The position numbers and the translations under genes are program-made. A stretch of 64,000 bases of DNA from Pararoseomonas sp. SCSIO 73927. Lineage in GTDB: Bacteria > Pseudomonadota > Alphaproteobacteria > Acetobacterales > Acetobacteraceae. The stretch lies in the NCBI RefSeq assembly GCF_037040815.1, contig NZ_CP146232.1, forward strand, positions 4,310,001-4,374,000. Direction: 5' to 3'. The notes under the pieces were generated by a model that worked only from the letters and a program-made list of their open reading frames with translations, was not told where the DNA came from and ran no database searches. Every line of letters starts with the position of its first letter. Positions within the stretch are counted from its first letter, which is position 1. Positions 23,892 to 41,071 of this stretch are shown here, piece by piece.

Positions 23892-24164
23892 TTAGCGCCG
23901 CCGTTCGGGCCTGCGCCAGGGCTCGGGGTCCACCGGCGGCGGGGCACGGCGCCCGGTTGGCGGGGGCGGCGGTGCCTCGGGCGCCGGTGCCTCCTCCTCG
24001 GGCATGAGGCGGTCCGCGATCCACCAGGCGAGCCGCCCGCAAGCGATGGCGCAGAGCAGGGCGATCAGCGCGTTCGGCACGGAGGTGCCGGGCCCCGTGA
24101 GCCAGATCCAGCCGCCGAAGCCGAGCAGCGCGCCGGCGATCGCGATGAGGAGCGGGCGCGTCAC
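23892..24164 (-). CDS. Small membrane protein with proline-rich tail, unknown
   Basis: 90 residues: two hydrophobic helices (about 5-23 and 31-50) and a hydrophilic tail with EEEAPAPEAPPPPP and a basic end (PERRR). It starts at GTG 24164, overlapping the stop of the 59-residue gene by 4 nt (GTGA). I recognise no family. It is the last gene of a coupled group that starts with the cyclic amidohydrolase at 25719. Confidence 0.62.
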   Translation of the reverse strand: MTRPLLIAIAGALLGFGGWIWLTGPGTSVPNALIALLCAIACGRLAWWIADRLMPEEEAPAPEAPPPPPTGRRAPPPVDPEPWRRPERRR

Positions 24165-24340
24165 CGCCGCCCCCGCAGCAGTCCGAAGGCGCCGCCGACG
24201 ACGGCAATGATGAGGCCGGCGAGGAAGTGCGCCATTCCGAAGCCGCCGAAGCCGAGGCCGAAGGCGACGAAGAGGGCGAAGCCGAGCAGCGCGATCATCG
24301 CGAGCAGCAGGCCCGGCGTCCTGGGCGGGCGGTACTTCAT
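24161..24340 (-). CDS. Small membrane protein, unknown
   Basis: 59 residues with two glycine-rich hydrophobic helices (LLLAMIALLGFALFVAFGL and HFLAGLIIAVVGGAFGLL) and a basic C-terminus GRR. It begins at ATG 24340 inside the ATGA of the amidohydrolase stop and ends inside the GTGA of the next gene, so all three are translationally coupled. Coupling on both sides argues that it is a real gene. No family or function recognised. Confidence 0.62.
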   Translation of the reverse strand: MKYRPPRTPGLLLAMIALLGFALFVAFGLGFGGFGMAHFLAGLIIAVVGGAFGLLRGRR

Positions 24341-25719: not shown

Positions 25720-25752
25720 GCGGCGTCCGGATCTGCTGCGGGGCAGCGAAGG

Positions 25753-26682
25753 TTAGGGCAGATCGGCGGCGGCGCGTAACCCACCCGGCACCGGGAAAAG
25801 CTCGTCCGCCAGGGAGAGGGCGAGGCCTGCCGCCTCGCTCTCCCGCTCCGCGTTCCAGGCCAGGGCCACGCCCACGGCGCGGATCGGCCCGGCCAGGGCC
25901 CGGAACGCCACCCCCGGCGGGTGCAGCCGCGCCATGCCGGAGGAGACGAGCGCGACGCCCAGCCCCGCCGCGACGAAGCCGAGCTGCGCCATGGCCGACC
26001 CCACCTCCCGCAAGGTGCGGGGCGCGAAGCCGGCGTCACGGCAGGCCGCGACCATGGAATCCGCGTAGGCCGGGGAGATGGCGCGGGGCAGCAACAGCAT
26101 CGGCTCGTCCGCCAGCATCGCGAGCGGCAGGGGATCGGGCGCGTGGAGCAGCGCGTGCCCCGCCGGCAGCGCGGCGAGGAGATGGTCCTCGCCCAGAGGG
26201 CGGATGCGGATCGGTAGGCGGGCGCGGTCGTCGCGCAGCAGGGCGATGTCCACCTCGCCGCGCCGCAGCGCCTCCAGCGCGTCCGCCGTGTCCATCTCCC
26301 GAACGGAGACCGCCGCCTCCGGCCGCGCGGCGGAGAGGGCACGCACCAGCGGCGGCAGCTCGTCGAATAGGGCCGAGGTGACGCAGGCAATCGCCACGGG
26401 AGCGTGGCGCCCCGCGCGCAGTTCCCGCGCCAGCGCCTCCAGCGCGCCCGCATCCTCCGCCAGCCTTCGCGCGAGCGGCAGCAAGGCCTCGCCGGCGCGC
26501 GTCGGGCGCGTGCCGCGACCCGTGCGTTCCAGCAGCCGCACGCCCAGCTCCCTCTCCAGCGCTTGAATCTGCGCGGTGAGGGGCGGCTGCGAGAGGCCGA
26601 GGCGGGCGGCGGCGCGGCCGAAATGCCCTTCCTCGGCAACTGCAAGGAAATGACCCAGGCGTCGCACGAGGCGGAAATCCAT
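25753..26682 (-). CDS. LysR-family transcriptional regulator
   Basis: 309 residues. The winged helix-turn-helix is at the start ([20 protein letters not shown], then [22 protein letters not shown]), followed by a LysR substrate-binding domain. It diverges from the PrpD-like gene, and a 7-9-7 inverted repeat with a T-N11-A core lies 2 nt from its start codon. That arrangement fits autoregulation together with control of the divergent prpD-prpC genes. The amidohydrolase gene downstream on its strand is an alternative target. ATG 26682 is the natural start. Confidence 0.92.
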
Positions 26683-26683
26683 G

Positions 26684-26706
26684 CGCGATACGGAAACGCT
26701 ATCGCG
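26684..26706. promoter_or_regulatory. LysR-type operator palindrome
   Basis: CGCGATA (26684-26690) and TATCGCG (26700-26706) form a perfect inverted repeat with a 9-nt centre and contain the T-N11-A pattern of LysR-type boxes. It lies just upstream of the LysR ATG (26682) and 76 nt before the PrpD-like GTG. Binding is inferred from symmetry and location. Confidence 0.55.
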
Positions 26707-26781
26707 CGGCGCCGTCAATCGGATTGGACGATGATCCGGTGCGGGTGCAGAACCGCGGTCCCGAGAGAGGAAGGAACGCCC

Positions 26782-28311
26782 GTGCAGACGCATCCCGTGA
26801 AAGTCCATCCGTCCAAGGCGCTGCTGAAGCGCGAGGACCAGCTGGCCTGGAAGATCGCCGCCGTGGCCGCCGATCCCGTGGCGGTTCCCGACGACACGGC
26901 GGCCATGATCATCAACCGCGTGATCGACAACGCCTCCGTCGCGATCGCCGCCATCAACCGCTCCGCCCCCACCTCCGCGCGGCAGATGGCGCTCGGCCAC
27001 CCGCGGCCGGGCGGCGCCACGGTGTTCGGCGCCGATCCCGCCGTGCGGGTCTCGCCGGAATGGGCGGCGTGGGCGAACGGCACGGCGGTCCGCGAACTGG
27101 ACATGCACGACACCTTTCTGGCCGCCGACTACTCCCACCCCGGCGACAACATTCCCCCGATCCTGGCGGTCGCCCAGACGACCGGGAAGAGCGGCGCGGA
27201 GCTGCTGCGCGGGCTCGCCACCGGCTATGAGATCCACATCGACCTCGTGCGCGCCATCTGCCTGCACGAGCACAAGGTGGACCACATCGCCCATCTCTGC
27301 CCCGCCCAGGCCGCCGGCCTCGGCACGCTGCTGGGGCTGGACCAGGCGACGATCTTCCAGGCCGTGCAGCAGGCTCTCCACGTCTCCGTGACCTTCCGGC
27401 AGAGCCGCAAAGGCGAGATCAGCAGCTGGAAGGCCTTCGCCCCCGCTCATGCCGGCAAGCTGGCGGTGGAGGCCGTGGACCGCGCCATGCGCGGGGAGGG
27501 CGCGCCGAGCCCGATCTACGAGGGCGAGGACAGCGTGATCGCCTGGGTGCTGGCCGGCCGCACGCAGCGCTACCAGGGGGATGTCTACGAGCCGGTCTAT
27601 TATGAGGTGCCGCTGCCCGGCCCGGGCGAGGGCAAGCGCGCCATCCTGGACAGCTACACGAAGGAGCACTCGGCCGAGTACCAGTCCCAGGCGCTGATCG
27701 ACCTCGCCTTCCGCATGCGGGAGAAGATCGGTGACCTGGAGCAGGTAGAGAAGATCCTCCTCCACACCTCCCACCACACCCACTACGTCATCGGCACGGG
27801 CGCCAACGACCCGCAGAAGATGGACCCGACCGCCAGCCGCGAGACGCTGGACCACTCCATCATGTACATCTTCACCGTCGCCCTGCAGGACGGGCGCTGG
27901 CACCACGTGGACAGCTACGCGCCCGAGCGCGCCGCCCGGCCCAACACCGTCCGCCTCTGGCACAAGATGGAGACGCGGGAGGACCCGGAGTGGACCCGCC
28001 GCTACCACTCCCGCGACCCGAACGAGCTCGCCTTCGGCGGCCGGGTGGAGATCACCCTCAAGGACGGCACGGTGCTGACGGACGAGCTGGCCGTGGCCAA
28101 CGCCCACCCGCTGGGGGCGAAGCCCTTCGGCCGCGCCGACTACATCCGCAAGTTCCGCATCCTGACCGAGGGCCTGATCGACCCGGCGGAGGCGGACCGC
28201 TTCATCGCGGCGGCGGAGAACCTGCCGAACCTGAAGGCCGGGGAGCTGGACGGGCTCAACGTGCGCCTGCCCGACGGCAAGCTGGCCGTCGGCAGGCCCG
28301 GCATCTTCTGA
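26782..28311 (+). CDS. prpD: MmgE/PrpD family protein, probable 2-methylcitrate dehydratase
   Basis: 509 residues. [20 protein letters not shown] is the family hallmark near the N-terminus; [21 protein letters not shown] and [20 protein letters not shown] follow. PrpD dehydrates 2-methylcitrate in propionyl-CoA breakdown. GTG 26782 was chosen because AGGAAGGA lies upstream and [12 protein letters not shown] begins the hydrophilic N-terminus. The next gene is a 2-methylcitrate synthase, which supports the assignment; other members of this family act on cis-aconitate or itaconate, so a caveat remains. No prpB (methylisocitrate lyase) follows. Confidence 0.87.
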
Positions 28312-28394
28312 CCGATGCCTGCGCCGCCGGCCCGGCCAGCGGCGCGGGACCGCCACGCGACAGAACCGCCACGCGACAACCAGGAGGAAGAACC

Positions 28395-29531
28395 ATGAGC
28401 GAAGCCCAGCCCGATATCCGGAAGGGCCTGGTCGGCGTCGTCGCCGACGTCTCCGCCGTCTCCAAGGTCATGCCGGAGACGAACAGCCTCACCTACCGCG
28501 GCTACCCCGTGCAGGACCTGGCGGAGGGGTGCTCCTTCGAGGAGGTGGCCTACCTCCTCTGGAACGGGGAGCTGCCGGACGCCGCCCGGCTCGCCGAGTT
28601 CCGGCGGGAGGAGGCCTCCCAGCGCGCGCTGACGCCGGCGCTGCTGGAGGTGATCCGCGCCTTCCCGCGCGACGCCCACCCGATGGACGCCATCCGCACC
28701 GCCGTCTCCTTCCTCGGGATGGAAGACCCTGACACGGCGGACGTGTCGGAGCCCGCCACCCGGCGCAAGGCAATGCGGCTGCTGGCGAAGATCCCGACCG
28801 CGATCGCGGCCGCCCACCGTGCCTCCAAGGGGCTAGACGCGGTCGCGCCCGACCCCTCCCTGACCTTCGCGGAGAACTTCTTCCACGTGGTCTTCGGAAA
28901 GGTTCCCCAGCCCGAGGTGGTGAAGGCCTTCGACGTCTCCCTCATCCTCTACGCGGAGCACGGCTTCAACGCCTCCACCTTCACGGCCCGCCTCATTACC
29001 TCCACCGGCGGTGACCTGCACGGGGCGGTGACCGGCGGCATCGCCGCGCTGAAGGGCCCGCTGCACGGCGGCGCCAACGAGGCCGTGATGCACATGCTGA
29101 GCGAGATCGGCGACCCCACCAAGGCCGTGGAGTGGCTGCAGTCCCGCTTCGATCACAAGGCGCTTGTCATGGGCTTCGGCCACCGCGTCTACAAGAACGG
29201 CGACAGCCGCGTGCCCACCATGACCAAATACGCCGAGAAGATGGCGGAGGTGGTGGGCGACCGCCGCTGGATGGAGATGTCCCGCCTGCTGGCCGGGGAG
29301 ATGCTGGCGAAGAAGAACATCCACCCGAACCTCGATTTCCCGGCCGGGCCCGCCTACCACCTGATGGGCTTCGACATCCCGCTCTTCACGCCGATCTTCG
29401 TCGCCTCCCGCATCACCGGCTGGGCGGCGCACGTGATCGAGCAGGCCGCGGACAACCGCCTCATCCGCCCGCTGTCGCACTACACAGGCGCGGCCCAGCG
29501 CGCGGTTCCCGCGATGGCGGAGCGCGGCTGA
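28395..29531 (+). CDS. prpC: 2-methylcitrate synthase / citrate synthase
   Basis: 378 residues of the citrate-synthase family, short form. The N-terminus GLVGVVADVSAVSKV followed by SLTYRGYPVQDLA is the PrpC type. Catalytic regions are intact: PLHGGANEAVMHML, MGFGHRVYKNGDSR, and the Asp in HPNLDFPAG. It condenses propionyl-CoA with oxaloacetate. ATG 28395 has AGGAGGAAGAACC directly upstream. It follows prpD by 83 nt and is closed by the 19-bp hairpin at 29536. Confidence 0.92.
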   Translation: MSEAQPDIRKGLVGVVADVSAVSKVMPETNSLTYRGYPVQDLAEGCSFEEVAYLLWNGELPDAARLAEFRREEASQRALTPALLEVIRAFPRDAHPMDAIRTAVSFLGMEDPDTADVSEPATRRKAMRLLAKIPTAIAAAHRASKGLDAVAPDPSLTFAENFFHVVFGKVPQPEVVKAFDVSLILYAEHGFNASTFTARLITSTGGDLHGAVTGGIAALKGPLHGGANEAVMHMLSEIGDPTKAVEWLQSRFDHKALVMGFGHRVYKNGDSRVPTMTKYAEKMAEVVGDRRWMEMSRLLAGEMLAKKNIHPNLDFPAGPAYHLMGFDIPLFTPIFVASRITGWAAHVIEQAADNRLIRPLSHYTGAAQRAVPAMAERG

Positions 29532-29535
29532 GAGA

Positions 29536-29578
29536 GCCGCGTGCGGGCGGCGCGACGCGCGCGCCGCCCGCACGCGGC
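29536..29578 (+). terminator. Very long perfect hairpin after prpC
   Basis: The 19 nt at 29536-29554 (beginning GCCGCGTGCGG) pair without mismatch with 29560-29578 across a five-nucleotide loop, ACGCG. It begins 4 nt after the prpC stop. There is no T-run, so it may act with Rho or as a 3'-end stabiliser rather than as a classical intrinsic terminator. Confidence 0.7.
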
Positions 29579-29665
29579 GACGAACACGACAGCACGGCGC
29601 GGCGCAACGTGCGACGACGCGAGTCGGATGCGCGCGAAAATCTGCGCGCGCGCAAAGTCTTTTCG

Positions 29666-29694
29666 TTGACAAGCCGGAGTGCGCTGCAGATAGC
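29666..29694 (+). promoter_or_regulatory. Candidate sigma-70 promoter
   Basis: TTGACA at 29666-29671 is a perfect -35 hexamer; 17 nt later GATAGC (29689-29694) matches three of six -10 positions. The region just upstream is T-rich for this genome (AAAGTCTTTTCG). It would give a leader of about 380 nt to the histone-like gene. Confidence 0.4.
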
Positions 29695-30081
29695 GTGAAG
29701 CGCGCAAGAACTGCCCAACGCGATTCGCGCGCGATGCTGTCAAGCACCATGTGCAGCCACGATGCACCCGGCAGGACAGCGACGCGGCAGGGAGCGGGGC
29801 GGTGATCGGCGCGACGCAACGCGAAAGGACGGTTCTTGGGTTTCCACGAACGGGAAGTCTCAAGCCGGATCGGAGAGTGGGCGGCGGAGACGGCGGCGGA
29901 AGCGCCGGCCGAGCTGCCCGGGAAGGCGAGGCCGGTGACGGCACGGCGCGCCCGCTCCATCGCCTCGCGTGGCGGAACCAGGCCCTGTGATGCCTTCCCC
30001 CCGAGTGGTGGGCGCGTCCGCGGGTCGAGAGCGATCCATGACGCGAACCCACCAGGCACGAACCATCAGGAGATCCAGCAC

Positions 30082-30849
30082 GTGAGCGAAGAGAAGACCC
30101 CCCGCGCCGCCGCCATGGCAATGAGCACGACGCGCCGCAGCAGCGGCACGCGCAAGGCGAGCACCGCCGGCCGCGCCAAGCCCGCCGCGAAGGCCGCGAC
30201 GAAGACCACGAAGGCCGCCGCCGCCAAGAAGCCGGCTGCGAAGAAGGCCGCCCCGGCGAAGAAGACCACCACCGCCGCGCGCAAGACGACGGCCACGCGC
30301 AGCACGGCCACCCGCGCCACCGCCGCGAAGAAGGCCGCCCCGGCCCGCAAGGCCGCCGCGAGCAAGACCACCGCCGCGCGCAAGACCACCAGCACGCGCA
30401 GCACGGCCGCGAAGAAGGCCGCGCCCGCCCGCAAGGCGGCGGCGAGCCGCGCCGCCCCGGCCAAGCGCGCTACCACGGCCCGCACTGCCGCCAAGTCCGC
30501 CACCGCGCGCCGCCCGGCCGCCAAGCGCACCACTGCGGCGGCCACCACCGCCCGCAAGGCCGCGCCGAAGCGCACCGCCGCCGCCAAGCCCGCGGCGAAG
30601 ACCACCACCGCGCGGACGACGGCCCGCAAGGCCCCGGCCTCCCGCACCACGGCGACCCGTACCACGGCCACCCGCGCCGCCGCCAGCCGCAGCACGGGCG
30701 CCCGCAAGAGCGCCGCGACGAGCTCGCGCAGCGAGGCCGCGAAGAAGGGCGCCGAAACCCGCGCGCGCCGCAAGGCCGAGGCCGCCGCCGCCGCGCAGGA
30801 GTCCCCCGTGCAGGAGACCGAGGCGCAGGAGAACGGCGACCAGACCTGA
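30082..30849 (+). CDS. Histone H1-like, Lys/Ala/Arg/Thr-rich DNA-binding protein (AlgP/Hc1-like)
   Basis: 255 residues, almost all Ala, Lys, Arg, Thr and Pro in degenerate repeats such as AAKKAAPARKAA, ARKTTSTRS and AKRTTAAATT, with a short acidic tail (QETEAQENGDQT). Eukaryotic H1 C-terminal tails and bacterial AlgP/Hc1 proteins look alike; they coat DNA and compact the nucleoid. The start is GTG 30082, with AGGAG 8 nt upstream. It is monocistronic, with a long leader and a textbook intrinsic terminator after it. Repeats are imperfect at DNA level, so length may vary between strains. Confidence 0.85.
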   Translation: MSEEKTPRAAAMAMSTTRRSSGTRKASTAGRAKPAAKAATKTTKAAAAKKPAAKKAAPAKKTTTAARKTTATRSTATRATAAKKAAPARKAAASKTTAARKTTSTRSTAAKKAAPARKAAASRAAPAKRATTARTAAKSATARRPAAKRTTAAATTARKAAPKRTAAAKPAAKTTTARTTARKAPASRTTATRTTATRAAASRSTGARKSAATSSRSEAAKKGAETRARRKAEAAAAAQESPVQETEAQENGDQT

Positions 30850-30870
30850 TCGGCTCGCCGTCACGGAGAA

Positions 30871-30895
30871 GGGGGCGCCTCGGCGCCCCCTTTTT
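30871..30895 (+). terminator. Intrinsic terminator of the histone-like gene
   Basis: GGGGGCGCC (30871-30879) pairs with GGCGCCCCC (30882-30890), in practice a 7-8-bp stem with a small loop, followed immediately by TTTTT (30891-30895). It is the clearest Rho-independent terminator in the window, 21 nt after the stop codon. Confidence 0.9.
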
Positions 30896-30907
30896 CGTGC
30901 GCGCTCC

Positions 30908-31771
30908 CTAGCGCGGCGGCAGGGCGAGCAGGTCCGCGTGCCCGACCGCGGCGCGCAGCGCCCCTCGCCGTGCCTGCAGCGCGCGCGCGGCCGGCCAGGC
31001 GCCGATCCTCCTGGCGCCGCGCGGCGTCCAGCGCGCCGCGGCCTCCGCGTGCCCCTTCGCGAGCGCGTTGAGCATCTGCGTCTCCGCCGGCCCGATCCGC
31101 CAGGGCGAGGGCGCGGTGGCCACGGCGAAGCCCGCCTCGCGGAAGGCGGCGGCGGTCGCGCGCACCGCCTCGCCCCCCAGGGCCGGCCCGTCAAATCCCT
31201 TGTCCCGCCCCTGGTCGCGCCGGAAGCCGCGCGCGATGGCCCGGTCCAGCGGGTGCGGCGGCAGGAAGCGCGCGTCGCCCGCCACGTTCAGCGCCGCGTA
31301 GAAGGGCAGGCGCAGCCCCGCCGCCAATCTCCCCACCCAGCGGCGGGAAACGAGGTCGAGAAGGGCGGAGCAGACCACGCCGTCCGCCCTGCCCAGCGGC
31401 AGCCCGTCCGGCGCGTCCGCCAGGTCCCGTACCAGCCCGTCCACCCGCCACGCGCCTGCGGGCGTGTGGACCAGCAGCGTGCGCTTGTTCGGCGCCGAGA
31501 CCTCGAACCCCACCTCCACCGCGCGCATGGCAATGGTGTCGAAGGCGAACTCGATGAGGGTCACGTCCGCGTCCACCAGCGTCCAGGCCTGCGGCCGGTT
31601 CAGCAGGGGGGCGAGCCAGCGGAACAGGCTTCCGGTGCCCGCCCCGAGATCAAGCAGCCGCGGCCGCGCCGGCAGCGCCGCGGAGAGGGCGAGGGCGAGG
31701 CCGATGTCGCGCGCGCGGGCGTCGAAGGGCTCGCGCAGCTCCAGCCAGTCGGCGTCGAAGCTCTCGCTCAC
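30908..31771 (-). CDS. Class I SAM-dependent methyltransferase
   Basis: 287 residues. Motif I LLDLGAGTG (about residues 40-48) is followed by TLVDADVTLIEFA and the motif IV region RADGVVCSALLDLVSRRWVG, a Rossmann-fold methyltransferase. The C-terminal 60 residues are basic and arginine-rich. It starts at GTG 31771, overlapping the glycosyltransferase stop by 4 nt, and is the last gene of the RibD/MDR/PTPS/GT4/MT operon. The acceptor is unknown; by context it could methylate the pteridine/pyrimidine product or its sugar. It ends 13 nt beyond the T-run of the opposing terminator. Confidence 0.85.
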   Translation of the reverse strand: MSESFDADWLELREPFDARARDIGLALALSAALPARPRLLDLGAGTGSLFRWLAPLLNRPQAWTLVDADVTLIEFAFDTIAMRAVEVGFEVSAPNKRTLLVHTPAGAWRVDGLVRDLADAPDGLPLGRADGVVCSALLDLVSRRWVGRLAAGLRLPFYAALNVAGDARFLPPHPLDRAIARGFRRDQGRDKGFDGPALGGEAVRATAAAFREAGFAVATAPSPWRIGPAETQMLNALAKGHAEAAARWTPRGARRIGAWPAARALQARRGALRAAVGHADLLALPPR

Positions 31772-32811
31772 GCGCGCACCCTCTCGATCTCGCGGGCGAA
31801 GGCCTCCGCGCGGTCAGACCATCGCGGCAGGCGCTGCCCCGCGCGCCACGCGGCCTCCGCCATCGCCTGCCGCAGCCCGGTGTCGTAGATCGGCCGGCGC
31901 ATGGCGCGGGACAGGCTGTTCCCGTCGCCGGGAGCCGCGATCACCGCGGCGTCGCGCGGCGCCAGCTCCGCCAGCGCGCCACCGGCGGTGACGGCCAGCG
32001 GCAGCCCCCGCGCCAGCGCCTCAGCCACGGCCATGCCATAGCCCTCCCAGTGGCTCGCCGAAGCGAAGAGGTCGGCACAGTCGTAGAGCGCCTCCAGTGC
32101 CGCGCCCTCCACCTCCCCGGCGAAGGCGACGCGACGCGCGATGCCGAGCTCCTCCGCCAGCGCCCGCAGCCCCTCGGCGTGCACGGGGTCCCGCACCGGG
32201 CCGGCGATCGTCAGGCTCCATTCCAGGTCGGTCAGCCGCCCGAGGGCGCGCAGCAACACATCATATCCCTTGCGCGGGACGATCGTGCCGACGGAGAGGA
32301 TGGCGCAACCCGGCCCGCCCGAGCCGCGGGCGCGGGGCGCGGGATCGGTGCCCGGCTCCACCGTGCCGATGCGCGCCGGGTCGGCGCCGAACTCCGGCGC
32401 CAGCCGCTCCGCCGTGAGGCGGGACGTAGTGACGAGCCCGCCCAGCCGGGGAAGCAGTGCGCGCTCCCGCTCGCGCAGGGCCTCGCGCTCCCCTTCCGGG
32501 AAGCCCGTCTCCAGGGCCGTGGGATGGTGGATCAGCCCCAGCGCGCGGGCGAGGGCAGGGGAGCCTGCCAGCGGCGCGAAGGCCGGCAGCCCGAGCCCGT
32601 CCACCACCAGCGCCTCCGTCGCCAGCAGCCGGTCCAGGACGCCGCGCGCGGCCGCCTCCGCCTCAGCGTCCGGCAGGGGGTGGCGTCCGGGCATCTCCTC
32701 CACGCGCACCGCGTGGCCCGCCGCGCGCAGTCCCTCGACGATCCGGCGGTCGTAAGCGTAGCCGCCGCTGGTGGCCGAGAGCGGCGCCGGGACGGCGAGA
32801 ACAATCCTCAC
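31768..32811 (-). CDS. Glycosyltransferase family 4 (GT-B fold)
   Basis: 347 residues. The N-terminal half is acceptor-like (SGGYAYDRRIVEGLRAAGH), and the C-terminal half has ILSVGTIVPRKGYDVLL and the E-x7-E motif in WEGYGMAVAEALARGLP of retaining GT4 enzymes using nucleotide sugars. It starts at GTG 32811 within the GTGA of the PTPS-like gene stop, and ends overlapping the methyltransferase. No polysaccharide genes surround it, so a small-molecule acceptor made by its operon partners is more likely than a glycan. Confidence 0.88.
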   Translation of the reverse strand: MRIVLAVPAPLSATSGGYAYDRRIVEGLRAAGHAVRVEEMPGRHPLPDAEAEAAARGVLDRLLATEALVVDGLGLPAFAPLAGSPALARALGLIHHPTALETGFPEGEREALRERERALLPRLGGLVTTSRLTAERLAPEFGADPARIGTVEPGTDPAPRARGSGGPGCAILSVGTIVPRKGYDVLLRALGRLTDLEWSLTIAGPVRDPVHAEGLRALAEELGIARRVAFAGEVEGAALEALYDCADLFASASHWEGYGMAVAEALARGLPLAVTAGGALAELAPRDAAVIAAPGDGNSLSRAMRRPIYDTGLRQAMAEAAWRAGQRLPRWSDRAEAFAREIERVRA

Positions 32812-33224
32812 GCGGTCGCGGCCTTCCGCACCGGCGCGTCGTAAGCGGCCCAGGCCAGGGGGCTCTCCCGCAGCAGCACCTTCACGGCCTCCACGGCGCG
32901 CCCGCCCTCGCCCAGCCTGCCCTCGGCCAGGGCGGCGCAGAGCAGGCCGTGGACGTGGAAGCACAGGAACTCCGTGCTGGTGTTCTGGCCGGAGAACTGG
33001 GGCAGGTTGTCCAGGTTATCGTAGTCGAAGCTGTCGAGGATGCGGCGCAGCTCCACCCGGGCCGCGGCGATGTCCACGAGCAGGTTGGCGTCGTCCAGCG
33101 CGGGCGCGCGGAACTCCGCCTCCACCACGAAGGTCGCGCCGTGCACCCGCTGGGCGGGACCGAAGGCTTCTCCCTTGAAGGAGTGCGCGATCATCACGTG
33201 GTCGGCGACGGTGAGGCTGTACAT
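32808..33224 (-). CDS. 6-pyruvoyl-tetrahydropterin synthase/QueD-fold protein lacking canonical catalytic residues
   Basis: 138 residues with the tunnelling fold pattern. Compared with E. coli QueD, one zinc His is kept (His14 in MIAHSF) and so is the next (His28 in RVHGATF), but the third zinc His is Ala30, the catalytic Cys is Ala24, and the catalytic His of the LDHHYLND segment is Tyr68 (FDYDNLDN). The Glu near the C-terminus (Glu120, LLRES) and the NTSTE segment are kept. It should therefore not do standard PTPS or QueD chemistry. ATG 33224 lies 11 nt after the MDR dehydrogenase stop. The role is unknown; it may bind a pterin-like substrate. Confidence 0.82.
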   Translation of the reverse strand: MYSLTVADHVMIAHSFKGEAFGPAQRVHGATFVVEAEFRAPALDDANLLVDIAAARVELRRILDSFDYDNLDNLPQFSGQNTSTEFLCFHVHGLLCAALAEGRLGEGGRAVEAVKVLLRESPLAWAAYDAPVRKAATA

Positions 33225-33235
33225 CGGGATCTCGT

Positions 33236-34225
33236 CTAGGGTTCGTAGGTGACGACGGGCAGCAGCGGCGCCGCCTGCCCCTCGGGCGGGGCGCCGAGCA
33301 GGCCGGGCATGGCGCGCGGCAGGTCGCGGAAGGCGATCATCGGGCCGCAGAGCGCATCCAGCGCCGGATCGGAGAGGAGGGAGAGGGCGAGCGCCATCCG
33401 CTCCGCGTGGCTGCGCCGCCCCCGCATCGGCGCGGCGACATGCCCGACCTGGGTGGAGCGGATCGTGACCCGGTTGGCATGGAACGCCTCGCCCAGCGGC
33501 AGGGCGCACTCGGCGGCGCCGAACCAGGAGGCCTCCAGGATCCGGGCTTCGAACCCGGCGCAGCGCAGCGCGGTCCGCAGGCCTTCCGGGTTGCCGGAGG
33601 CGTGGATGATCAGGTCGCGATTGCCGGGCGCCTCCTCCGGTGCCACCAGCCGCAGGCCGAGACGCTGCGCCACGGGCGCCCGCAGCGGGTCCGGATCGGC
33701 CACCGCCAGCTCCAGCGCCGGGAAGCACGAGAGCAGCCAGGCGCAGAGCAGCCCCACCACCCCGGCGCCGACCACCAGCGCGCGCTCCCCCGGCAGGGGC
33801 TGCGCGTCCCAGATGGCGTTCAGCGCCGTCTCCATGTTGGCCGCCAGCACGGCGCGCCATTCCGGCACGCGGTCCGGCACGACGGCGCAGAGGGAGACGG
33901 GCGCGACGAAGCGGTCCTGATGCGGGTGCAGGCAGAAAACGCGCTCTCCCACCCACTCCTCCGGGCCTTCTTCCACCACGCCAACGGCCGCGTAGCCGTA
34001 CTTGACCGGGAAGGGGAGGGCGCCGCCCTGCATCGGGCCGCGCATCCGTGCCCACTCGCTCTCCGGCACGCGGCCGTTGAACACCAGCCGCTCCGTGCCG
34101 CGGCTGATGCCGCTGGCCAGCGTCCGCACCAGCACCTCGCCGGGTCCGGGCGGGCGCAGCGTCTCCCCGTGGATCGCGCCCTCGCCGGGGCCGGTGGTCC
34201 AGAAGGCGGTGGCGGTGCGGCTCAA
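33236..34225 (-). CDS. MDR-superfamily dehydrogenase without the usual zinc ligands (BchC-like)
   Basis: 329 residues. GroES-like N-terminal half: LASGISRGTERLVFNGRVP and PFPVKYGYAAVG. The places where zinc alcohol dehydrogenases have CG(S/T)D and GHE read SRGT and KYGY, so the catalytic zinc site is absent. The nucleotide-binding motif VVGAGVVGLLCAW is intact. The pattern recalls the dehydrogenase BchC. The start is TTG 34225 in a TTGA overlapping the stop of the RibD-like gene; the protein would begin MSRTATAFWTTGPGEG. An NAD(P)-linked oxidoreduction of a pathway intermediate is likely. Confidence 0.82.
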   Translation of the reverse strand: MSRTATAFWTTGPGEGAIHGETLRPPGPGEVLVRTLASGISRGTERLVFNGRVPESEWARMRGPMQGGALPFPVKYGYAAVGVVEEGPEEWVGERVFCLHPHQDRFVAPVSLCAVVPDRVPEWRAVLAANMETALNAIWDAQPLPGERALVVGAGVVGLLCAWLLSCFPALELAVADPDPLRAPVAQRLGLRLVAPEEAPGNRDLIIHASGNPEGLRTALRCAGFEARILEASWFGAAECALPLGEAFHANRVTIRSTQVGHVAAPMRGRRSHAERMALALSLLSDPALDALCGPMIAFRDLPRAMPGLLGAPPEGQAAPLLPVVTYEP

Positions 34226-35085
34226 GCGCCCTCGCAGACGCGGGGGCGCGTGCGGCGCAGCGGGATGTCGAAAAGGATGTCGCCGCCCTCCAGGGGATAG
34301 GGTGTCCAGTCGAAACGCAGCCCGTCCGCGATGCGCGCCGCCTCTGGCAGGATGAAGGCCGCGCGGCCGGAGCCGAGGATGACGGGCGCGACGGTGACGT
34401 GCAGCCGGTCCAGCAGCCCCGCTGAGAGGAAGGCGGAGACGGTGATCCCCCCGCCCTCCACGAAGAGCCGGGAGAGCCTGCGCGCGCGCAGGGCGCGCAG
34501 CAGCGCGGCCAGGTCCATCCCCTCCGGCCCGCGCGGCAGGCGCAGCACCTCCGCCGCGCCGTGGCGATCCCCGAGAGGCGAATCCGCGAGGCAGGCAAGA
34601 AGGGTGGGCGGGCCGCCGTCGGAGAACACACGGTGCGACGGCGAGAGGCGACGGCGCGGGTCGAGGATCACGCGCACCGGGCTCGCCCCCGCCACCTCGC
34701 GCGTGGTCAGGCGCGGGTCGTCCTTCTCCACCGTGCCCGCGCCGACCAGCACCGCGTCGCAGAGCGCGCGCAGCCGGTGCGTGTGGAGAATGTCGCCTCG
34801 ACCGCCGATCCACTGGCTGGAACCGCCGGCCGTGGCGATGCGCCCGTCCAGCGTTTGCGCCAGGCGGCCGACGAGGGTGCAGCCATCCTCTCCCGCGCCG
34901 GCGGCGAGCACGGGCGTGAAGAGGGAGGAGAGCGGATGGTCGGGCAGCGGCGCGGGATCTCCGGCGCGGCGCGCCAGCAGCGCCGCCCAGGCCCGATCCG
35001 TCGCGCCGTCGGGCGCGCTGTCGGTCGCGCCGTCGGGCGCGCTGTCGGTCGCGCCGTCGGGCGCGCTGTGCGGCGTGGCGTCCAT
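34222..35085 (-). CDS. RibD C-terminal-type pyrimidine reductase family protein
   Basis: 287 residues. After a 30-residue tail of SAPDGATD repeats comes the RibD_C/dihydrofolate-reductase-like fold: AQTLDGRIATAGGSSQWIG, LCDAVLVGAGTVEKDDPRL, PVRVILD and LFVEGGGITVSAFL. These enzymes reduce the ribosylamino-pyrimidine derived from GTP in riboflavin synthesis. The deaminase domain of housekeeping RibD is missing, and neither ribA, ribB, ribH nor ribE is nearby, so this is probably a paralogue working on a related pyrimidine or pterin. It heads the five-gene operon. Confidence 0.86.
   Translation of the reverse strand: MDATPHSAPDGATDSAPDGATDSAPDGATDRAWAALLARRAGDPAPLPDHPLSSLFTPVLAAGAGEDGCTLVGRLAQTLDGRIATAGGSSQWIGGRGDILHTHRLRALCDAVLVGAGTVEKDDPRLTTREVAGASPVRVILDPRRRLSPSHRVFSDGGPPTLLACLADSPLGDRHGAAEVLRLPRGPEGMDLAALLRALRARRLSRLFVEGGGITVSAFLSAGLLDRLHVTVAPVILGSGRAAFILPEAARIADGLRFDWTPYPLEGGDILFDIPLRRTRPRVCEGA
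35000..35070. repeat. Tandem 24-bp repeat encoding SAPDGATD
   Basis: Nearly three copies of a 24-bp unit (35000-35023, 35024-35047, 35048-35070) lie in the first codons of the RibD-like gene. Each keeps the reading frame and encodes eight residues, so copy-number change by slippage would alter only the N-terminal tail length. Confidence 0.85.
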
Positions 35086-35140
35086 CCCGCGCAGCTATGC
35101 CCCAGCGCCGCGCCCCGCGCCAGCAGCCCGCCCGGGTCGC

Positions 35141-35572
35141 TCAGGCCCGGGCCGCCAGGGTGAGAGAGGGCACCTGGCGCGGCATCGCGCGCTGGCCCAG
35201 CCCGCCATAGGTCGCCGGGCGGCTGGCCGGGATGGCGGCGCCCGCGATGGTCTCGATCACGCGGGACTGCAGGGTAATGGCGCGCTCCAGCAGGCGCCGG
35301 TTCTCGTCGGAGAGGCCGCGCAGGCCGAGGGCCAGCCGTTCCGCCGCCGCGCGCAGCTCGCCCGTCATGGCGCCGGGCGCGGCCCCCGTCCTCGTCGCGG
35401 CGCCGTAGGCGGCGGTGAAGGCGTCGCTCGCCTGCACCTTCGCCGTCGCGAGGGTGGCGGCGCGGCCGAGGTCGAGCCGCGCGAGCGCCTCGTTCTCGGC
35501 CCGCAAGGCCTCCGCCAGGCGCTGGCCTGCCGCGAGGAGCGCCTGGACGATGGGGGCGGGGGTCTGGCTCAT
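35141..35572 (-). CDS. FlgN-like flagellar export chaperone (tentative)
   Basis: 143 residues, largely alpha-helical with heptad-like stretches (LLAAGQRLAEALRAENEALA, ERLALGLRGLSDENRRLLE) and a short proline-containing tail, the layout of FlgN/FliT-type chaperones for hook-filament junction proteins. The assignment leans on position: its ATG overlaps the stop of the FlgJ-like gene by 4 nt in the flgI operon. Alphaproteobacterial FlgN proteins are poorly conserved, so a search is needed to confirm. Confidence 0.6.
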   Translation of the reverse strand: MSQTPAPIVQALLAAGQRLAEALRAENEALARLDLGRAATLATAKVQASDAFTAAYGAATRTGAAPGAMTGELRAAAERLALGLRGLSDENRRLLERAITLQSRVIETIAGAAIPASRPATYGGLGQRAMPRQVPSLTLAARA

Positions 35573-35847
35573 GCGGTCCTCTCCTGTTGGGGCGCCTGCG
35601 CGGCGGATTGCACGCGCAGCAGCTCGCGGTACACGGCGTCGGCGATGCCCACCCCACCCTTGTCCGACCAGGACTGGGCGTATCGCTCGACGAGCATCGG
35701 CCGCCACTGCTCCTCCGCGGCGCCGCCGGAGAGCAGCCCCTTCGACGCCTCCCCGAAGACGGGCTTGAGCAGCGCGCCCAACACCTGCGCCTCGAAGCGG
35801 CGGGCCACGCGGGCCAGGGCGGCATGGTTGGAGGCGACCGGGTCCAT
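35569..35847 (-). CDS. flgJ: Flagellar rod-binding protein (FlgJ N-terminal domain only)
   Basis: 92 residues with the rod-binding segment ARRFEAQVLGALLKPVFGEA, GGAAEEQWRPMLVERYAQ and GGVGIADAVYRELL. Enterobacterial FlgJ carries an additional muramidase domain; alphaproteobacterial versions such as this have only the rod-binding part, which caps the growing rod. The ATG at 35847 shares its A with the TGA of flgI (TGATG); a GTG one codon earlier is possible. It is the second gene of the sigma-54 flagellar operon. Confidence 0.83.
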   Translation of the reverse strand: MDPVASNHAALARVARRFEAQVLGALLKPVFGEASKGLLSGGAAEEQWRPMLVERYAQSWSDKGGVGIADAVYRELLRVQSAAQAPQQERTA

Positions 35848-36965
35848 CACCGCACCTCCAGTTCGGCCTGCAGCGCGCCGGCGGCCTTTACCGATTGCAG
35901 GATGGTGATCAGGTCCCGCGGTCCGACGCCGAGGGAGTTCAGCCCACGCACCAGCTCCTCCAGCGTGACGGAGCGGGGCAGGATGCCCAGGCGCCGGTCC
36001 CGCGCGTCGTCCACCTCAATCCCGGTGCGCGGCACCACAGCCGTCCCGCCGCCCGAGAGCGGGCCGGGCTGGCTCACCTGCGGCGTCTCCGTCACGCGGA
36101 TGGTCAGATTTCCCTGGGCGATGGCGACGGTGGAGACGCGGACATTGGCGCCCATGACGATGGTGCCGGACGCCTCCTCGATCACCACCTTCGCCGACTG
36201 GTCGGGCTCCACGCGAAGGCCCTCGATCTCCGTCAGCAGCCGCGCCACGTCGCGCCCGCCGGTCAGCACCACCACCGTGCGCGGGTCCGTCGCCGTCGCG
36301 CTGCCGGCGCCCGCCACGCGGTTGATGGCGGCGGCCATGCGCTGCGCCGTGGTGAGGTCGGGGTTGCGGAGGGAGAGGCGGATCCGGTCGCGCCCCGCGA
36401 GCTGGAAGGGCAACTCGCGCTCCACCACCCCGCCGGAGGAGATCCGGGCGGAGGTCGGCACGCCCCGCTGCACGGAGGAGGCCTGGCCGCGCGCCGCGAT
36501 CGCGCCCGTGGCCACCGCCCCCTGTCCCACCGCGTAGACCTCGCCATCCGCGCCCAGCAGCGGCGTGACCAGCAGGGTGCCGCCCGTGAGGTTCGTCGCG
36601 TCCCCGAGGGAGGAGACGGCGATGTCCAGCCGGCTGCCCGGCCGCGCGAAGGCCGGCAGGTTCGCCGTGACCATCACCGCGGCCACGTTGCGCGTGTCCA
36701 GCCGCGCCTCCTGGTCGCGCGTGTTCACCCCCAGCCGCTCCAGCATCCCGACGAGGGACTGGCGCGTGAAGATCGCGGAGCGCAGCCGGTCCCCCGTGCC
36801 GGGCAGCCCGACAACCAGCCCGTAGCCGACGAGCTGGTTGTCACGGATGCCCTCGATGTCCGCGATGTCCTTGATTCGCACCTGCGCGGCGGCCAGCGCC
36901 GGCCACAGCAGGGTGAGCAGCAGGATCATCGCCGTCTTCGCGCTTCGGAAACCCGTCCGGGGCAA
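35847..36965 (-). CDS. flgI: Flagellar P-ring protein FlgI
   Basis: 372 residues. A signal peptide (RTGFRSAKTAMILLLTLLWP, cut after AAA) precedes the mature RIKDIADIEGIRDNQLVGYGL, then GLPGTGD and the rest of the conserved P-ring protein, ending in LNSLGVGPRDLITILQSVKAAGALQAELEV. I chose TTG 36965: GGAGG lies 5 nt before it, it supplies the basic n-region, and the sigma-54 promoter at 36998-37012 predicts transcription from about 36987, so the ATG at 36989 could not be used. An ATG at 36929 would lack a basic n-region. FlgI forms the ring in the peptidoglycan around the rod. Confidence 0.92.
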   Translation of the reverse strand: MPRTGFRSAKTAMILLLTLLWPALAAAQVRIKDIADIEGIRDNQLVGYGLVVGLPGTGDRLRSAIFTRQSLVGMLERLGVNTRDQEARLDTRNVAAVMVTANLPAFARPGSRLDIAVSSLGDATNLTGGTLLVTPLLGADGEVYAVGQGAVATGAIAARGQASSVQRGVPTSARISSGGVVERELPFQLAGRDRIRLSLRNPDLTTAQRMAAAINRVAGAGSATATDPRTVVVLTGGRDVARLLTEIEGLRVEPDQSAKVVIEEASGTIVMGANVRVSTVAIAQGNLTIRVTETPQVSQPGPLSGGGTAVVPRTGIEVDDARDRRLGILPRSVTLEELVRGLNSLGVGPRDLITILQSVKAAGALQAELEVR

Positions 36966-36997
36966 TCTGGCCTCCAACACTTCCTGCATCCCCCGGC

Positions 36998-37012
36998 GCA
37001 ACGCCCGTGCCA
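36998..37012 (-). promoter_or_regulatory. Sigma-54 promoter of the flgI operon
   Basis: On the minus strand the sequence reads TGGCACGGGCGTTGC, with C before and G after. It matches the sigma-54 -24/-12 consensus TGGCACG-N4-TTGC at every fixed position and spacing. It points to flgI, about 33 nt upstream of the TTG start. Hook-basal-body genes are sigma-54-dependent in Caulobacter, where flgI also lies divergent to fliX. Confidence 0.82.
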
Positions 37013-37122
37013 GGGCAGGGCGGGGGAGGGTCGGCAGGCCTTGCCGGGGTAGGGGAGTTCTCTTCCCTCCGGGGCGGCAGGAAACGTCAGGGTGCGGCGG
37101 CAAAGGGCGGCAGGAGGCTGCG

Positions 37123-37542
37123 ATGGGCATGGCTGGGATCGGCGGCGTGGGATGGGCGCGCGGAGGGCAGGGCGCACGCGGCGCGGCGCGCCCGGGCGGG
37201 GCCTTCCGCCTGCCGGGGGTGGCGCGTTCGGCGGAGGCGGCCGGGGCGGCTCCCACAGCCGCCGCGGCCCCGATCGGCCTCCTCGCCATGCATGGGGCGG
37301 ACGAGGCGGCGGAGCGGGACCGGCGCGGTGCCGCCCGTGCGCGGGATCTCCTGAGGGAGCTCTCCGCCCTGCAGGCCGGGCTGCTGCGCGGCACGGTCGA
37401 TCCGGACGGCCTGGCGCGCATCGCCCTCCTGGCCGAGGGCGAGTCGCCGGAAGACCCCGTGCTCCGGGACGCGCTGACCGGTATCGCTTTGCGCGCCCGG
37501 GTGGAGCTGGCGCGGCGTGGCATAATGGTTGCAGGAACGTGA
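37123..37542 (+). CDS. fliX: Flagellar assembly regulator FliX
   Basis: 139 residues, the length of Caulobacter FliX. A low-complexity N-terminal half (glycine, arginine, alanine) is followed by the conserved helical part LLRELSALQAGLLRG, and DPVLRDALTGIALRARVELAR at the end. FliX couples basal-body assembly to activation of the sigma-54 activator FlbD, thereby controlling the class of genes to which flgI belongs. ATG 37123 has AGGAGG upstream. Its divergent position to flgI is the order seen in Caulobacter. Confidence 0.85.
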   Translation: MGMAGIGGVGWARGGQGARGAARPGGAFRLPGVARSAEAAGAAPTAAAAPIGLLAMHGADEAAERDRRGAARARDLLRELSALQAGLLRGTVDPDGLARIALLAEGESPEDPVLRDALTGIALRARVELARRGIMVAGT

Positions 37543-37590
37543 AAAGCCGTGAAGGAAGCCCGTGGCCGCCCGCCCGCCGGGGCGTTCCTC

Positions 37591-37620
37591 TTGTTTCTCT
37601 CCCGGTGCCGTCTGTATACG
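37591..37620 (+). promoter_or_regulatory. Candidate promoter of dksA
   Basis: TTGTTT (37591-37596) and TATACG (37615-37620) with an 18-nt spacer sit in a T-rich patch that stands out locally, about 50 nt before the dksA start. Only partial matches to the consensus, so this is a suggestion. Confidence 0.35.
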
Positions 37621-37671
37621 CGGCTACCTGACCGGCCGGGGGGACCGGAGGGGTCGGGCTAGGCCATCGGG

Positions 37672-38097
37672 ATGCAAGCCATGCTCATCACCCTGCCGCC
37701 GGATTACAAGCCCTCGGAAGACGAGGCCTTCATGAACCCCCGGCAGCTCGCCTACTTCAGGCAGAAGCTGCTGCGCTGGCGCGGGGACCTGATCCGCGAG
37801 GCCGGCGAGACCCTCTCCTCCATGGGCCAGGGCGGAATCGTCGAGGCCGACCTGACCGACCGGGCCAGCGTCGAGACCGACCGGGCGCTCGAGCTTCGCA
37901 CCCGCGACCGGGCCCGCAAGCTCATCTCCAAGATCGATCAGGCGCTGGAGCGGGTGGACAACGGCACCTACGGCTACTGCGAGGAGAGCGGCGAGCCCAT
38001 CGGCCTGCGCCGCCTGGAGGCCCGCCCGATCGCCACCCTCTCCATCGAGGCGCAGGAGCGCCACGAGCGTATGGAGCGCGTCCACCGGGACGACTGA
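37672..38097 (+). CDS. dksA: RNA polymerase-binding transcription factor DksA (single-cysteine type)
   Basis: 141 residues. A coiled-coil segment with the tip motif DLTDRASVETD (the acidic residues that enter the polymerase secondary channel) is followed by the degenerate zinc-finger region GTYGYCEESGEPIGLRRLEA and ARPIATLSIEAQERHE. Only one cysteine remains of the four in E. coli DksA, as known for several alphaproteobacterial DksA proteins. It works with ppGpp to repress rRNA and activate amino-acid genes. The start may alternatively be ATG 37681. It follows fliX by 129 nt. Confidence 0.92.
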   Translation: MQAMLITLPPDYKPSEDEAFMNPRQLAYFRQKLLRWRGDLIREAGETLSSMGQGGIVEADLTDRASVETDRALELRTRDRARKLISKIDQALERVDNGTYGYCEESGEPIGLRRLEARPIATLSIEAQERHERMERVHRDD

Positions 38098-38140
38098 GCC
38101 GGAGGGCGATCGGGCCGGCAGGAAGCCCCCGCTCGGCCCA

Positions 38141-39343
38141 TCAAGCCCGCAGCAGCCCGCTCCGCGCCGAAATGGCGCCGCTGCCGGGGAAGGCCGCGTC
38201 CACCGCTGCCGGCGGCAGGCCGAGATGATCCCGCAGCAGCCCCTTGGCCACGGCTCGCAGGTCCAGCGTCGGGGCGAGGTCCCGGTTCTCGTGCAGCCGG
38301 CCTTCTCCGAGTCCCGGCCAGTCCGCCAGCACGCGCCCGCCCGCCACCGCGCCGCCCAGCAGGAACGCGGCGCCGGCCGTTCCGTGATCCGTGCCGCCAT
38401 TCCCGTTCACCCGGGCGGTGCGGCCGAACTCCGTCATCACCAGCACGGCCGTGCGGGCCCAGGCCGGGCCCAGCCGCTCTCGCAGCGCGTCCAGCCCGTC
38501 ATCCAGCTGCGCCAGCGCTCGCCGCAGTCCCTGTACCTGTGCCCGGTGCGTGTCCCAGCCGCCGATCTCCAGCGCCGCCACGCGCGGGCCGCCCGGGGCC
38601 GCCATCAGCCGCCCGGCGGCGCCCGCCAACTCCACGAAGCCGTCCCGCTGCTCCGTCGGCGAGAGCACGCCGGCCGTGAAGCCGCGGGCCCGCAGCCCCT
38701 CCGCGATGGCGGGGCCGGTCACGGGGTCCGCGTGGTTCAGCTCCATCAGCCGGGCGTAGAGGTCGGGGGCGGGGCGATCCGCGCGGGTGGGGGCGTACAT
38801 CCCCACCGGCTCCGGCCCGCGCAGGATCAGCGGCAGGTCGTCCCCGACGGCGAAGGCGGCCCGGTTGCCGCCCCTTCCGTGGCCCGGCAGCCCGGCCAGG
38901 GCGCGGTTCAGCCACCCGGAGGTCATTCGCTGCGACGCCCCGCTCTCCAGCAGGTCCTGCGCCTCGAAATGGCTGCGCGAGCGGGTGGGCCCGCAGACCG
39001 CGTGGATCGGCATGGCCTCGTTCGCGCGGAACATGGCGTGCAGCTTCGGCATGCGCGGGTGCAGCCCGAAGAAGCCGCCGAGGTCGAGCACTCCGCCCTC
39101 CTGCCCCGGCTCCGGCAGCGCGATCGGCGCTCGCAGAGCGGTCAGGGCCGGGTCGCCATAGGGCTGCACGGCCGCCATCCCGTCCAGCGCGCCGCGCAGC
39201 AGGACGACGACGAGGCGCGCCTCCCCGGCGGGCCCGGCGCCGAGCGCCAGGCGCGCTCCACCCAGCACCGCCCCCGCCGTGAGGCCGAGGAGGAGCCCGC
39301 GCCGGCCGAGGAGGGATCCGATCAGGGGAAGGTGCCGCCTCAT
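38141..39343 (-). CDS. DUF1501 domain protein (exported)
   Basis: 400 residues. A Tat-like leader RRGLLLGLTAGAVLGGARLALG is followed by LVVVLLRGALDGM, the pattern SRSHFEAQDLLESG, EIGGWDTH, and VLVMTEFGRTARVNGNGGTDHG, all typical of DUF1501, which is related to the alkaline-phosphatase/sulfatase superfamily. DUF1501 and DUF1800 genes almost always pair; the function is unknown. Its ATG overlaps the stop of the DUF1800 gene by 4 nt. Confidence 0.9.
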   Translation of the reverse strand: MRRHLPLIGSLLGRRGLLLGLTAGAVLGGARLALGAGPAGEARLVVVLLRGALDGMAAVQPYGDPALTALRAPIALPEPGQEGGVLDLGGFFGLHPRMPKLHAMFRANEAMPIHAVCGPTRSRSHFEAQDLLESGASQRMTSGWLNRALAGLPGHGRGGNRAAFAVGDDLPLILRGPEPVGMYAPTRADRPAPDLYARLMELNHADPVTGPAIAEGLRARGFTAGVLSPTEQRDGFVELAGAAGRLMAAPGGPRVAALEIGGWDTHRAQVQGLRRALAQLDDGLDALRERLGPAWARTAVLVMTEFGRTARVNGNGGTDHGTAGAAFLLGGAVAGGRVLADWPGLGEGRLHENRDLAPTLDLRAVAKGLLRDHLGLPPAAVDAAFPGSGAISARSGLLRA

Positions 39344-40662: not shown

Positions 40663-41071
40663 GCCGGGGATAGTAGCATGCGCCCGGCGCGGCCTCTCAA
40701 GCGCGGCGGCGCTTCGAAGCGTAACGCGCGCATGACCCTTGCGTGCCGGATGCGCGCGGAACGGGCGGGCAATGCTTGCAAATTGCCGCCCGGCAGAGCA
40801 TGTGTGCGCCCGCAGCAGGGGCGCGGCAGCGGCGCCCGGCGGCATCAGGCAGGCCGGATGAGGCGCGGGCGCGGCAGAACTGCCGGCGGCCCGTGCCATC
40901 GCATCCGGCCCGTCCGCCGTGAGGCCAGCAGGCGGAGCCACCCCCGGTGGGACCCCCCTGGAGCCGTTGCAAGCACCCGCGGACATGGGCCATCCCATGC
41001 GCCGCAACGACCACGCGGCGCTGCCGCAGAACCACTCTCGCGGCCAGGGGCCGCGACCGACGGAGGCCCAA
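40663..41071 (+). other. 409-nt intergenic region before the EF-G gene, with a palindrome at 40763-40791
   Basis: No gene seen; open frames here only extend the EF-G frame backwards without similarity. GGCAAT (40768-40773) and ATTGCC (40782-40787) form an inverted repeat around GCTTGCAA, and flanking GGGC/GCCC extend it imperfectly to about 40763-40791. TTGCAA in the centre is itself palindromic. It could be an operator for either divergent gene. Confidence 0.4.

Follow-up and report, generated by a model that had tools for sequence, protein, structure and literature searches.

The 64,000-nucleotide stretch of the Pararoseomonas sp. SCSIO 73927 genome analysed here (contig NZ_CP146232.1, positions 4,310,001 to 4,374,000; hereafter the window) carries a five-gene operon on the minus strand at 30908-35085 (Table 1). 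A preliminary description, made from the letters alone, had read it as a coupled operon with three overlapping junctions and one short gap. On re-reading the sequence, all five frames were confirmed at these coordinates and the junctions proved exact. The TGA of the RibD_C-type gene (34224-34222) overlaps the TTG of the MDR gene (34225) as TTGA. The TAG of the MDR gene ends at 33236 and the ATG of the PTPS gene lies at 33224, leaving 11 nucleotides between them. The TGA of the PTPS gene (32810-32808) overlaps the GTG of the glycosyltransferase (GT) gene (32811), and the TGA of the GT gene (31770-31768) overlaps the GTG of the methyltransferase (MT) gene (31771), both as GTGA. A promoter and terminator scan called nothing, the inverted repeat of Table 1 included. 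In gene content it is a short version of the PTPS-IV gene cluster, which is already published but has no described function.

Table 1. Features of the operon in the window.
Feature	Position	Strand	Remarks
RibD_C-type reductase	34222..35085	minus	287 aa, without deaminase domain
MDR dehydrogenase without the usual catalytic zinc Cys	33236..34225	minus	329 aa, TTG start
PTPS-IV protein, SCO6650 orthologue	32808..33224	minus	138 aa
GT4-type glycosyltransferase	31768..32811	minus	347 aa
Class I SAM methyltransferase-like protein (MT)	30908..31771	minus	287 aa
G+C-rich inverted repeat 3' of the last gene, possible transcription end	30871..30890	minus	read from sequence

The PTPS-like protein scores 66.8 bits against Pfam PTPS (cut-off 22.4) and 139 bits against SCO6650 of Streptomyces coelicolor (PDB 3d7j), with residues 1-130 of 138 alignable. 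Judged by sequence comparison, it is an orthologue of SCO6650 and a member of the PTPS-IV group. In the accessible text of PMC5445326, PTPS-IV is a subgroup of COG0720 (AGeNNT cluster-node 62) with FGPAQ as its signature, and FGPAQ stands at residues 21-25 of the window protein.

The conservation of the gene set was examined in three samples. The PTPS-like protein was searched in 60 relatives, the window's genome included, and was found in 26 (15 of 15 in the genus, 10 of 21 other family members and 1 of 24 outside the family). All five genes were detected in 21 of the 26 stretches of 3.4 kb around the PTPS gene. A scan of a genome collection gave at least 595 pattern matches, at least 588 of them confirmed, and the best 80 loci were analysed. 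These comprise 55 Acetobacteraceae-type loci (L041-L093, L097, L099) and 25 others from Halomonadaceae, Chromatiaceae, a Leptothrix, Gemmatimonadales, Actinomycetota and more. Because the 80 loci are the best matches to the query, an even sample of 398 Pseudomonadota genomes was also searched with a PTPS-IV profile. PTPS-IV was present in 27 of them, the window's genome included, all at E 4e-46 or better (the next score was 5e-16), which gave 26 new loci. PTPS-IV was further found in at least 8 of 246 genomes sampled around a Streptomyces carrier.

The order MDR-PTPS-GT-MT on one strand was found in 43/55 Acetobacteraceae-type loci, 21/25 other collection loci and 23/26 even-sample loci, and RibD was present in 52/55, 11/25 and 22/26. 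The 26 even-sample loci all have MDR directly upstream of PTPS, 23 have GT directly downstream (two further ones elsewhere in the locus) and 24 have MT downstream. RibD lies on the opposite strand in 21 of the 22 even-sample loci that have it; it heads the operon in Acetobacteraceae, where all five genes share one strand in 42/55 Acetobacteraceae-type loci versus 3/25 others. Single departures include L112, which is without GT, and L095, with MDR elsewhere. These results show that the five genes are conserved together across several phyla, far beyond chance neighbourhood. They support the preliminary description in treating the five genes as one set, with which the GT and MT travel. In two Streptomyces loci (L105 and L109) PTPS-IV stands alone, and the stretch examined shows none of its customary partners. 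Genes common around Acetobacteraceae-type loci, namely a DUF1537-like kinase (36 loci), a citrate synthase-like gene (26; both named by eye) and a gene that by eye resembles the window frame 35141-35707 (20 loci), were taken as plain synteny.

Relatives add further genes. The 26 even-sample loci have a creatininase in 6, a CDP-alcohol enzyme in 12, a flippase-like gene in 11, a sulfatase-like gene in 5 and YceI in 4. As neighbours of PTPS-IV, the accessible text of PMC5445326 gives PF00925 (GTP cyclohydrolase II, GCHII) and PF01872 (RibD_C), with no function stated there. PF01872 is in the window, while PF00925 is absent from it but occurs in 11/26 even-sample loci. The window shares the signature and the RibD_C neighbour with the published group, and the GCHII neighbour is shared only by relatives. 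The MDR-GT-MT core and the creatininase, flippase, CDP-alcohol, sulfatase and cytochrome b partners, in contrast, are not named in that text.

Twenty plasmid records also matched PTPS-IV, of which seven were examined. Six have MDR-PTPS-GT-MT in order (one MT was annotated as hypothetical and identified by sequence match), and four of the seven loci include GCHII. The seventh, from Palleronia, reads RibA-MDR-PTPS-MT-RibD with GT further off. There (L267, 3113-10887), an inositol monophosphatase-type gene, an FkbM methyltransferase and a PfkB kinase adjoin the set, which hints at an extra tailoring or phosphatase step. The cluster was found on plasmids of Microbacterium, Thiodictyon, Agrobacterium and Rhizobium (L263, L264, L265, L266), with transposase or recombinase genes near the first two, and it may therefore move between lineages.

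The signature FGPAQ is present in 108/110 loci, the exceptions being FGLAQ in L086 and FGPSQ in L093. It was found in 26/26 profile-found even-sample loci and in 78/80 collection loci, the latter count being partly circular because one of the two collection-scan patterns contains FGPAQ. In 110/110 loci HGA replaces HGH (106 counted, four by eye), and the window protein reads AQRVHGA. None of the motifs CxxxHGH (PTPS-I/QueD), CxxxxxHGH (PTPS-II) and ExxHGH (PTPS-III) was found in it. When aligned to QueD, 110/110 loci have Tyr, Phe, Met or Leu where the triad His would stand (Tyr 15, Met 5, Phe 3 and Leu 3 in the 26 even-sample loci). H14, H28 and E120 are invariant in 18/18 aligned PTPS-IV rows. 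In the PTPS fold, the Glu binds the ring, and the known enzymes of this fold bind 2-amino-4-oxo rings. With the HGH motif and the triad His lost, QueD or PTPS chemistry is unlikely for PTPS-IV, which should still bind a 2-amino-4-oxo ring through its Glu. The earlier suggestion that the protein acts on dihydroneopterin triphosphate in the manner of QueD or PTPS is thus not supported.

Public annotations would make the protein a QueD and the operon a relative of queuosine or deazapurine clusters. The protein is of the same fold family as QueD (Pfam PTPS, 66.8 bits), and 14 of the 20 plasmid matches are annotated as 6-carboxytetrahydropterin synthase. However, besides the unmatched QueD motif and the replaced triad His, the protein reaches 38 bits against the QueD profile (cut-off 89), and the annotations of the seven examined plasmid loci include no queC, queE or queF, the other loci not having been searched for que genes. 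A QueD identity is therefore highly improbable, and it was rejected on motif and profile score.

The RibD-like protein scores 142.7 bits against Pfam RibD_C (cut-off 24.1), the sole family matched. It has no deaminase domain and falls below the cut-offs of bifunctional RibD (TIGR00326, 106.7 versus 156 bits) and ArfC (TIGR01508, 102.6 versus 186.45 bits). Its best solved relative is 6p8c (E 2.5e-29), annotated as 2,5-diamino-6-ribosylamino-pyrimidinone 5'-phosphate reductase. This is a likeness to the archaeal riboflavin route (GCHIII, ArfB, ArfC), in which ArfC is a separate reductase acting before deamination. Since the window reductase is without a deaminase domain, it should leave the 2-amino group in place, which fits a PTPS-fold partner. 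Outside the Acetobacteraceae types, it scores 117-194 bits against the cluster RibDs of Proteobacteria, Gemmatimonadales and the Microbacterium plasmid, versus 83 bits against the canonical RibD of its own genome and 63 and 74 bits against two actinobacterial cluster RibDs. In an unrooted tree it groups with the Acetobacteraceae cluster RibDs. The canonical RibDs (own genome and G013) lie on a long branch (2.79) beside L107, within the cluster RibDs (support 96/42), and the tree is therefore no proof of one cluster clade.

In the window's genome, a GCHII (L159) is encoded far from the operon, with about 200 residues N-terminal to the domain and a Tyr at the switch position, which we take to be Tyr105 in E. 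coli numbering. In relatives this residue is Tyr in some and Met, His or Ile in others. Met at this position was reportedly found by Spoonamore in 2006 to make SCO6655 release a formylated product. Among 26 cluster GCHIIs, all ten with a residue other than Tyr have a creatininase in the locus, all nine without creatininase have Tyr, and seven have both Tyr and creatininase (Fisher p 0.004, an overstated value, as the rows are related, with seven actinobacterial Met, and creatininase was sought at the locus only). Two cluster proteins match Pfam Creatininase and score 19 and 38 bits against the ArfB model (cut-off 180). The window's genome has one creatininase, 34% identical to the Salinicola cluster protein and adjoining a presumably FtsY-like gene; it is not assignable to the operon. 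According to the accessible text of PMC9478397, the creatininase-like BrbF deformylates 2-amino-5-formylamino-6-ribosylaminopyrimidinone phosphate in vitro. A GCHII variant of the SCO6655 kind would give off this very intermediate. As far as the accessible text goes, the BrbF route and the early archaeal route have a separate deformylase before deamination, for which the creatininase is the candidate in the PTPS-IV relatives. Unlike them, the PTPS-IV set would use a GCHII-type enzyme and go on to MDR, PTPS-IV, GT and MT, not to riboflavin.

These findings uphold the link drawn in the preliminary description to a GTP-derived pyrimidine or pterin, which is carried by the GCHII in clusters of relatives, the deaminase-free reductase and the retained ring-binding Glu. 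Its remark that no riboflavin gene lies nearby holds for the window, where the PF00925 hits of the genome are far off, but it is misleading, since GCHII is in the cluster elsewhere and unlinked here. It is also conceivable that a flavin or its pyrimidine precursor, rather than a pterin, is what the set makes or modifies, as a second riboflavin branch. GCHII and RibD_C are riboflavin-type enzymes, and the work on BrbF shows that an alphaproteobacterium has a second route for the early riboflavin steps (accessible text of PMC9478397). We consider this improbable. The reductase is without the deaminase domain, the seven examined plasmid loci (the only ones where they were sought) have no annotated RibB, RibE or RibH, and the genome already has its own 369-aa RibD elsewhere, in a rib-type gene group whose other genes we take to be such by name. 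The 2-amino-4-oxo rings bound by PTPS-fold enzymes also speak against it.

The MDR protein has no Pfam match at 0.01, and its NCBIfam hits are all below cut-off. The best, BchC (TIGR01202), reaches 56.2 versus 291.25 bits, which does not identify it as BchC. At what we take to be the position of the catalytic-zinc Cys motif in this family it reads SGISRGTE, and S38 is invariant in 17/17 aligned relatives. As far as sequence goes, this agrees with the zincless dehydrogenase of the preliminary description. The GT matches Pfam Glycos_transf_1 at 90.1 bits (cut-off 26.4) and contains EGYGMAVAE, read as the E-x7-E that is presumably the GT4 motif. For the MT, the Pfam methyltransferase models stay below cut-off (21.8 versus 27), no NCBIfam model matched and the PDB matches are weak (best E 2e-4). 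The protein belongs to a conserved family, with D41 and G45 of DLGAGTG invariant in 18 aligned rows.

On balance, the operon is probably the shortened version, seen in Acetobacteraceae, of a widespread PTPS-IV cluster and supplies the greater part of a pathway leaving GTP by way of GCHII. GTP would be converted to a diaminopyrimidine and then to a 2-amino-4-oxo pyrimidine or pterin, which would be glycosylated and methylated. In the first step, GCHII (unlinked here) would make 2,5-diamino-6-ribosylamino-4(3H)-pyrimidinone 5'-phosphate, in some relatives via a formylated intermediate and a creatininase-family deformylase. The RibD_C protein would then reduce the ribosyl to a ribityl group with the ring not deaminated, so that the 2-amino-4-oxo face for the Glu of the PTPS fold is retained. 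The MDR enzyme may oxidise a side-chain hydroxyl. If this is the 2'-hydroxyl, the ketone and the 5-amino group could condense, giving a closed dihydropterin ring by a route independent of GTP cyclohydrolase I, and PTPS-IV might bind the ring and steer its closure. Finally, the GT4 would add a sugar and the MT a methyl group.

Several observations weigh against this pathway. No GCHII or creatininase was found in the window or in the examined stretches of the 55 Acetobacteraceae-type loci, and a relative of the unlinked GCHII also occurs in members of the family that have no PTPS-IV (G019 and G020), so this enzyme is not specific. Within the 55 Acetobacteraceae-type loci MT is missing in 12, GT in 3 and MDR in 2, some of them at contig ends, and GT or MT is missing or elsewhere in 3/26 even-sample loci. 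RibD was seen in only 2/14 actinobacterial collection loci, at 27-28% identity. The MDR substrate and the ring closure come by chemical inference from knowledge of the families. We likewise infer the identity of the product, its glycosylation and its methylation, as the assignment of genes to atoms is not readable from sequence.

The proposed product resembles the pterin glycosides cyanopterin and limipterin. The pterin of these compounds originates from GTP cyclohydrolase I and PTPS-II, and unlike their systems the pathway proposed here has a GCHII-type start, an MDR enzyme and a PTPS without HGH. As described in the accessible text on Cyanobacteria and Chlorobium, these glycosides are likewise a pterin with a sugar, and the pteridine glycosyltransferase of Chlorobium acts on tetrahydrobiopterin.

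To our knowledge, synthesis of the deazaflavin cofactor F420 needs neither a GT4 nor a methyltransferase. A role of PTPS-IV and its neighbours in F420 synthesis is stated, from unpublished work, in the accessible text of Zallot 2016 (PMC5041015). CofH was over cut-off in 10 of 11 actinobacterial carriers tested, the exception being G483. In contrast, it was over cut-off in 0/30 proteobacterial carriers, the window's genome included (G257 has two pieces below cut-off). An F420 role is thus very unlikely, and the CofH test rules it out for these Proteobacteria unless an unrelated deazaflavin synthase is used.

In Halomonadaceae, Actinomycetota and others, the cluster adds a CDP-alcohol phosphatidyltransferase, an LPG_synthase_TM flippase-like protein and a sulfatase-domain membrane protein (in Lentzea, the sulfatase-like protein lies just below the cut-off). 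Tentatively, the GTP-derived ring in such relatives might be the headgroup of a membrane phospholipid, with the CDP-alcohol phosphatidyltransferase coupling it to diacylglycerol phosphate, although we hold this to be rather doubtful. At the same tentative level, the GT4 and MT would decorate the ring, the flippase-like protein would turn the lipid outward, the LtaS/sulfatase-like enzyme would add a group and a cytochrome b561 may reduce or oxidise the headgroup. The Acetobacteraceae form might yield a soluble counterpart or rely on an enzyme of general function.

The CDP-alcohol enzyme and the sulfatase-like protein occur in the identical 18 of 398 Pseudomonadota genomes, and 14 of the 18 genomes with the pair carry PTPS-IV versus 13 of the 380 others (Fisher p 2e-15). 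This 18-of-18 match ties pterin-type enzymes to a lipid-type module. The pair adjoins GCHII, flippase and cytochrome b genes on the Rhizobium and Agrobacterium plasmids, and the Microbacterium plasmid has the order CDPOH-MDR-PTPS-GT-MT-flippase-RibD. In the 60 relatives the sole sulfatase-like hit is in the one carrier outside the family, which also holds by far the best CDP-alcohol hit (2.6e-32; next 3.2e-12). A cytochrome b561-like gene was found in 7/26 even-sample loci.

However, 13 of the 27 sampled carriers are without both genes, the window's genome included. There, CDP-alcohol and sulfatase-like genes were not found apart from one weak CDP-alcohol hit of 20 bits, and the flippase was not searched genome-wide. 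Four alphaproteobacterial genomes (G240, G265, G295 and G334) have the pair side by side without PTPS-IV, and the pair therefore also serves something else, as an independent lipid-type module. The cytochrome b561-type gene lies mostly in loci without the CDP-alcohol enzyme (7 of 9 counted), namely L225, L227, L229, L230, L234 (weak), L236 and L237. Together with that enzyme it occurs in L264 and L108, and also in L265 and L266. L108 is the only collection locus of the 80 to have it, and it stands on three plasmids. A sulfatase-like homologue was found in 19 of the 21 genomes reached through loci (absent from Lamprocystis and Leptothrix), mostly away from the cluster. Both Streptomyces genomes in which PTPS-IV stands alone have it too, the actinobacterial counts covering PTPS carriers only. 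A literature search for pterin lipids found nothing. The wider proposal, that PTPS-IV clusters make a new class of membrane lipids, is more speculative still. Such phospholipids would have as their headgroup a pterin (or 2-amino-pyrimidine) that is glycosylated and methylated and comes from GTP independently of GTP cyclohydrolase I. It would serve as a membrane redox or light-absorbing group, and the window would hold a stripped-down soluble form.

The preliminary description had matched the operon to no described pathway. As to function this still holds, but the PTPS group, with two of its neighbours, has already been published as PTPS-IV (accessible text of PMC5445326). The literature searched, in which most subscription journals were not covered, gave no description of the whole set, its function or its product. 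If the pathway from GTP through GCHII proposed above is right, the gene set would give a concrete route from GTP to a product found described nowhere. Many labels of 6-carboxytetrahydropterin synthase would be wrong, such as those on the plasmid-borne matches counted above. It would also account for the retention in Streptomyces of a GCHII variant (SCO6655) whose product is reportedly altered, and would give reason to look for a new cofactor, pigment or headgroup among the common bacteria of soil, sea and plants.

Inspection by eye of the frames listed for 24000-42000 showed no partner gene; the flanking frames were not run through family libraries. The frames upstream of the operon look flagellar in type. 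Downstream, at 29836-30849, lies a Lys/Ala-rich repetitive frame with a histone H1-like look and several tandem repeats. The start of the RibD-like gene (35000-35069) contains a perfect 24-nucleotide tandem repeat of 2.9 copies, read as SAPDGATD repeats.

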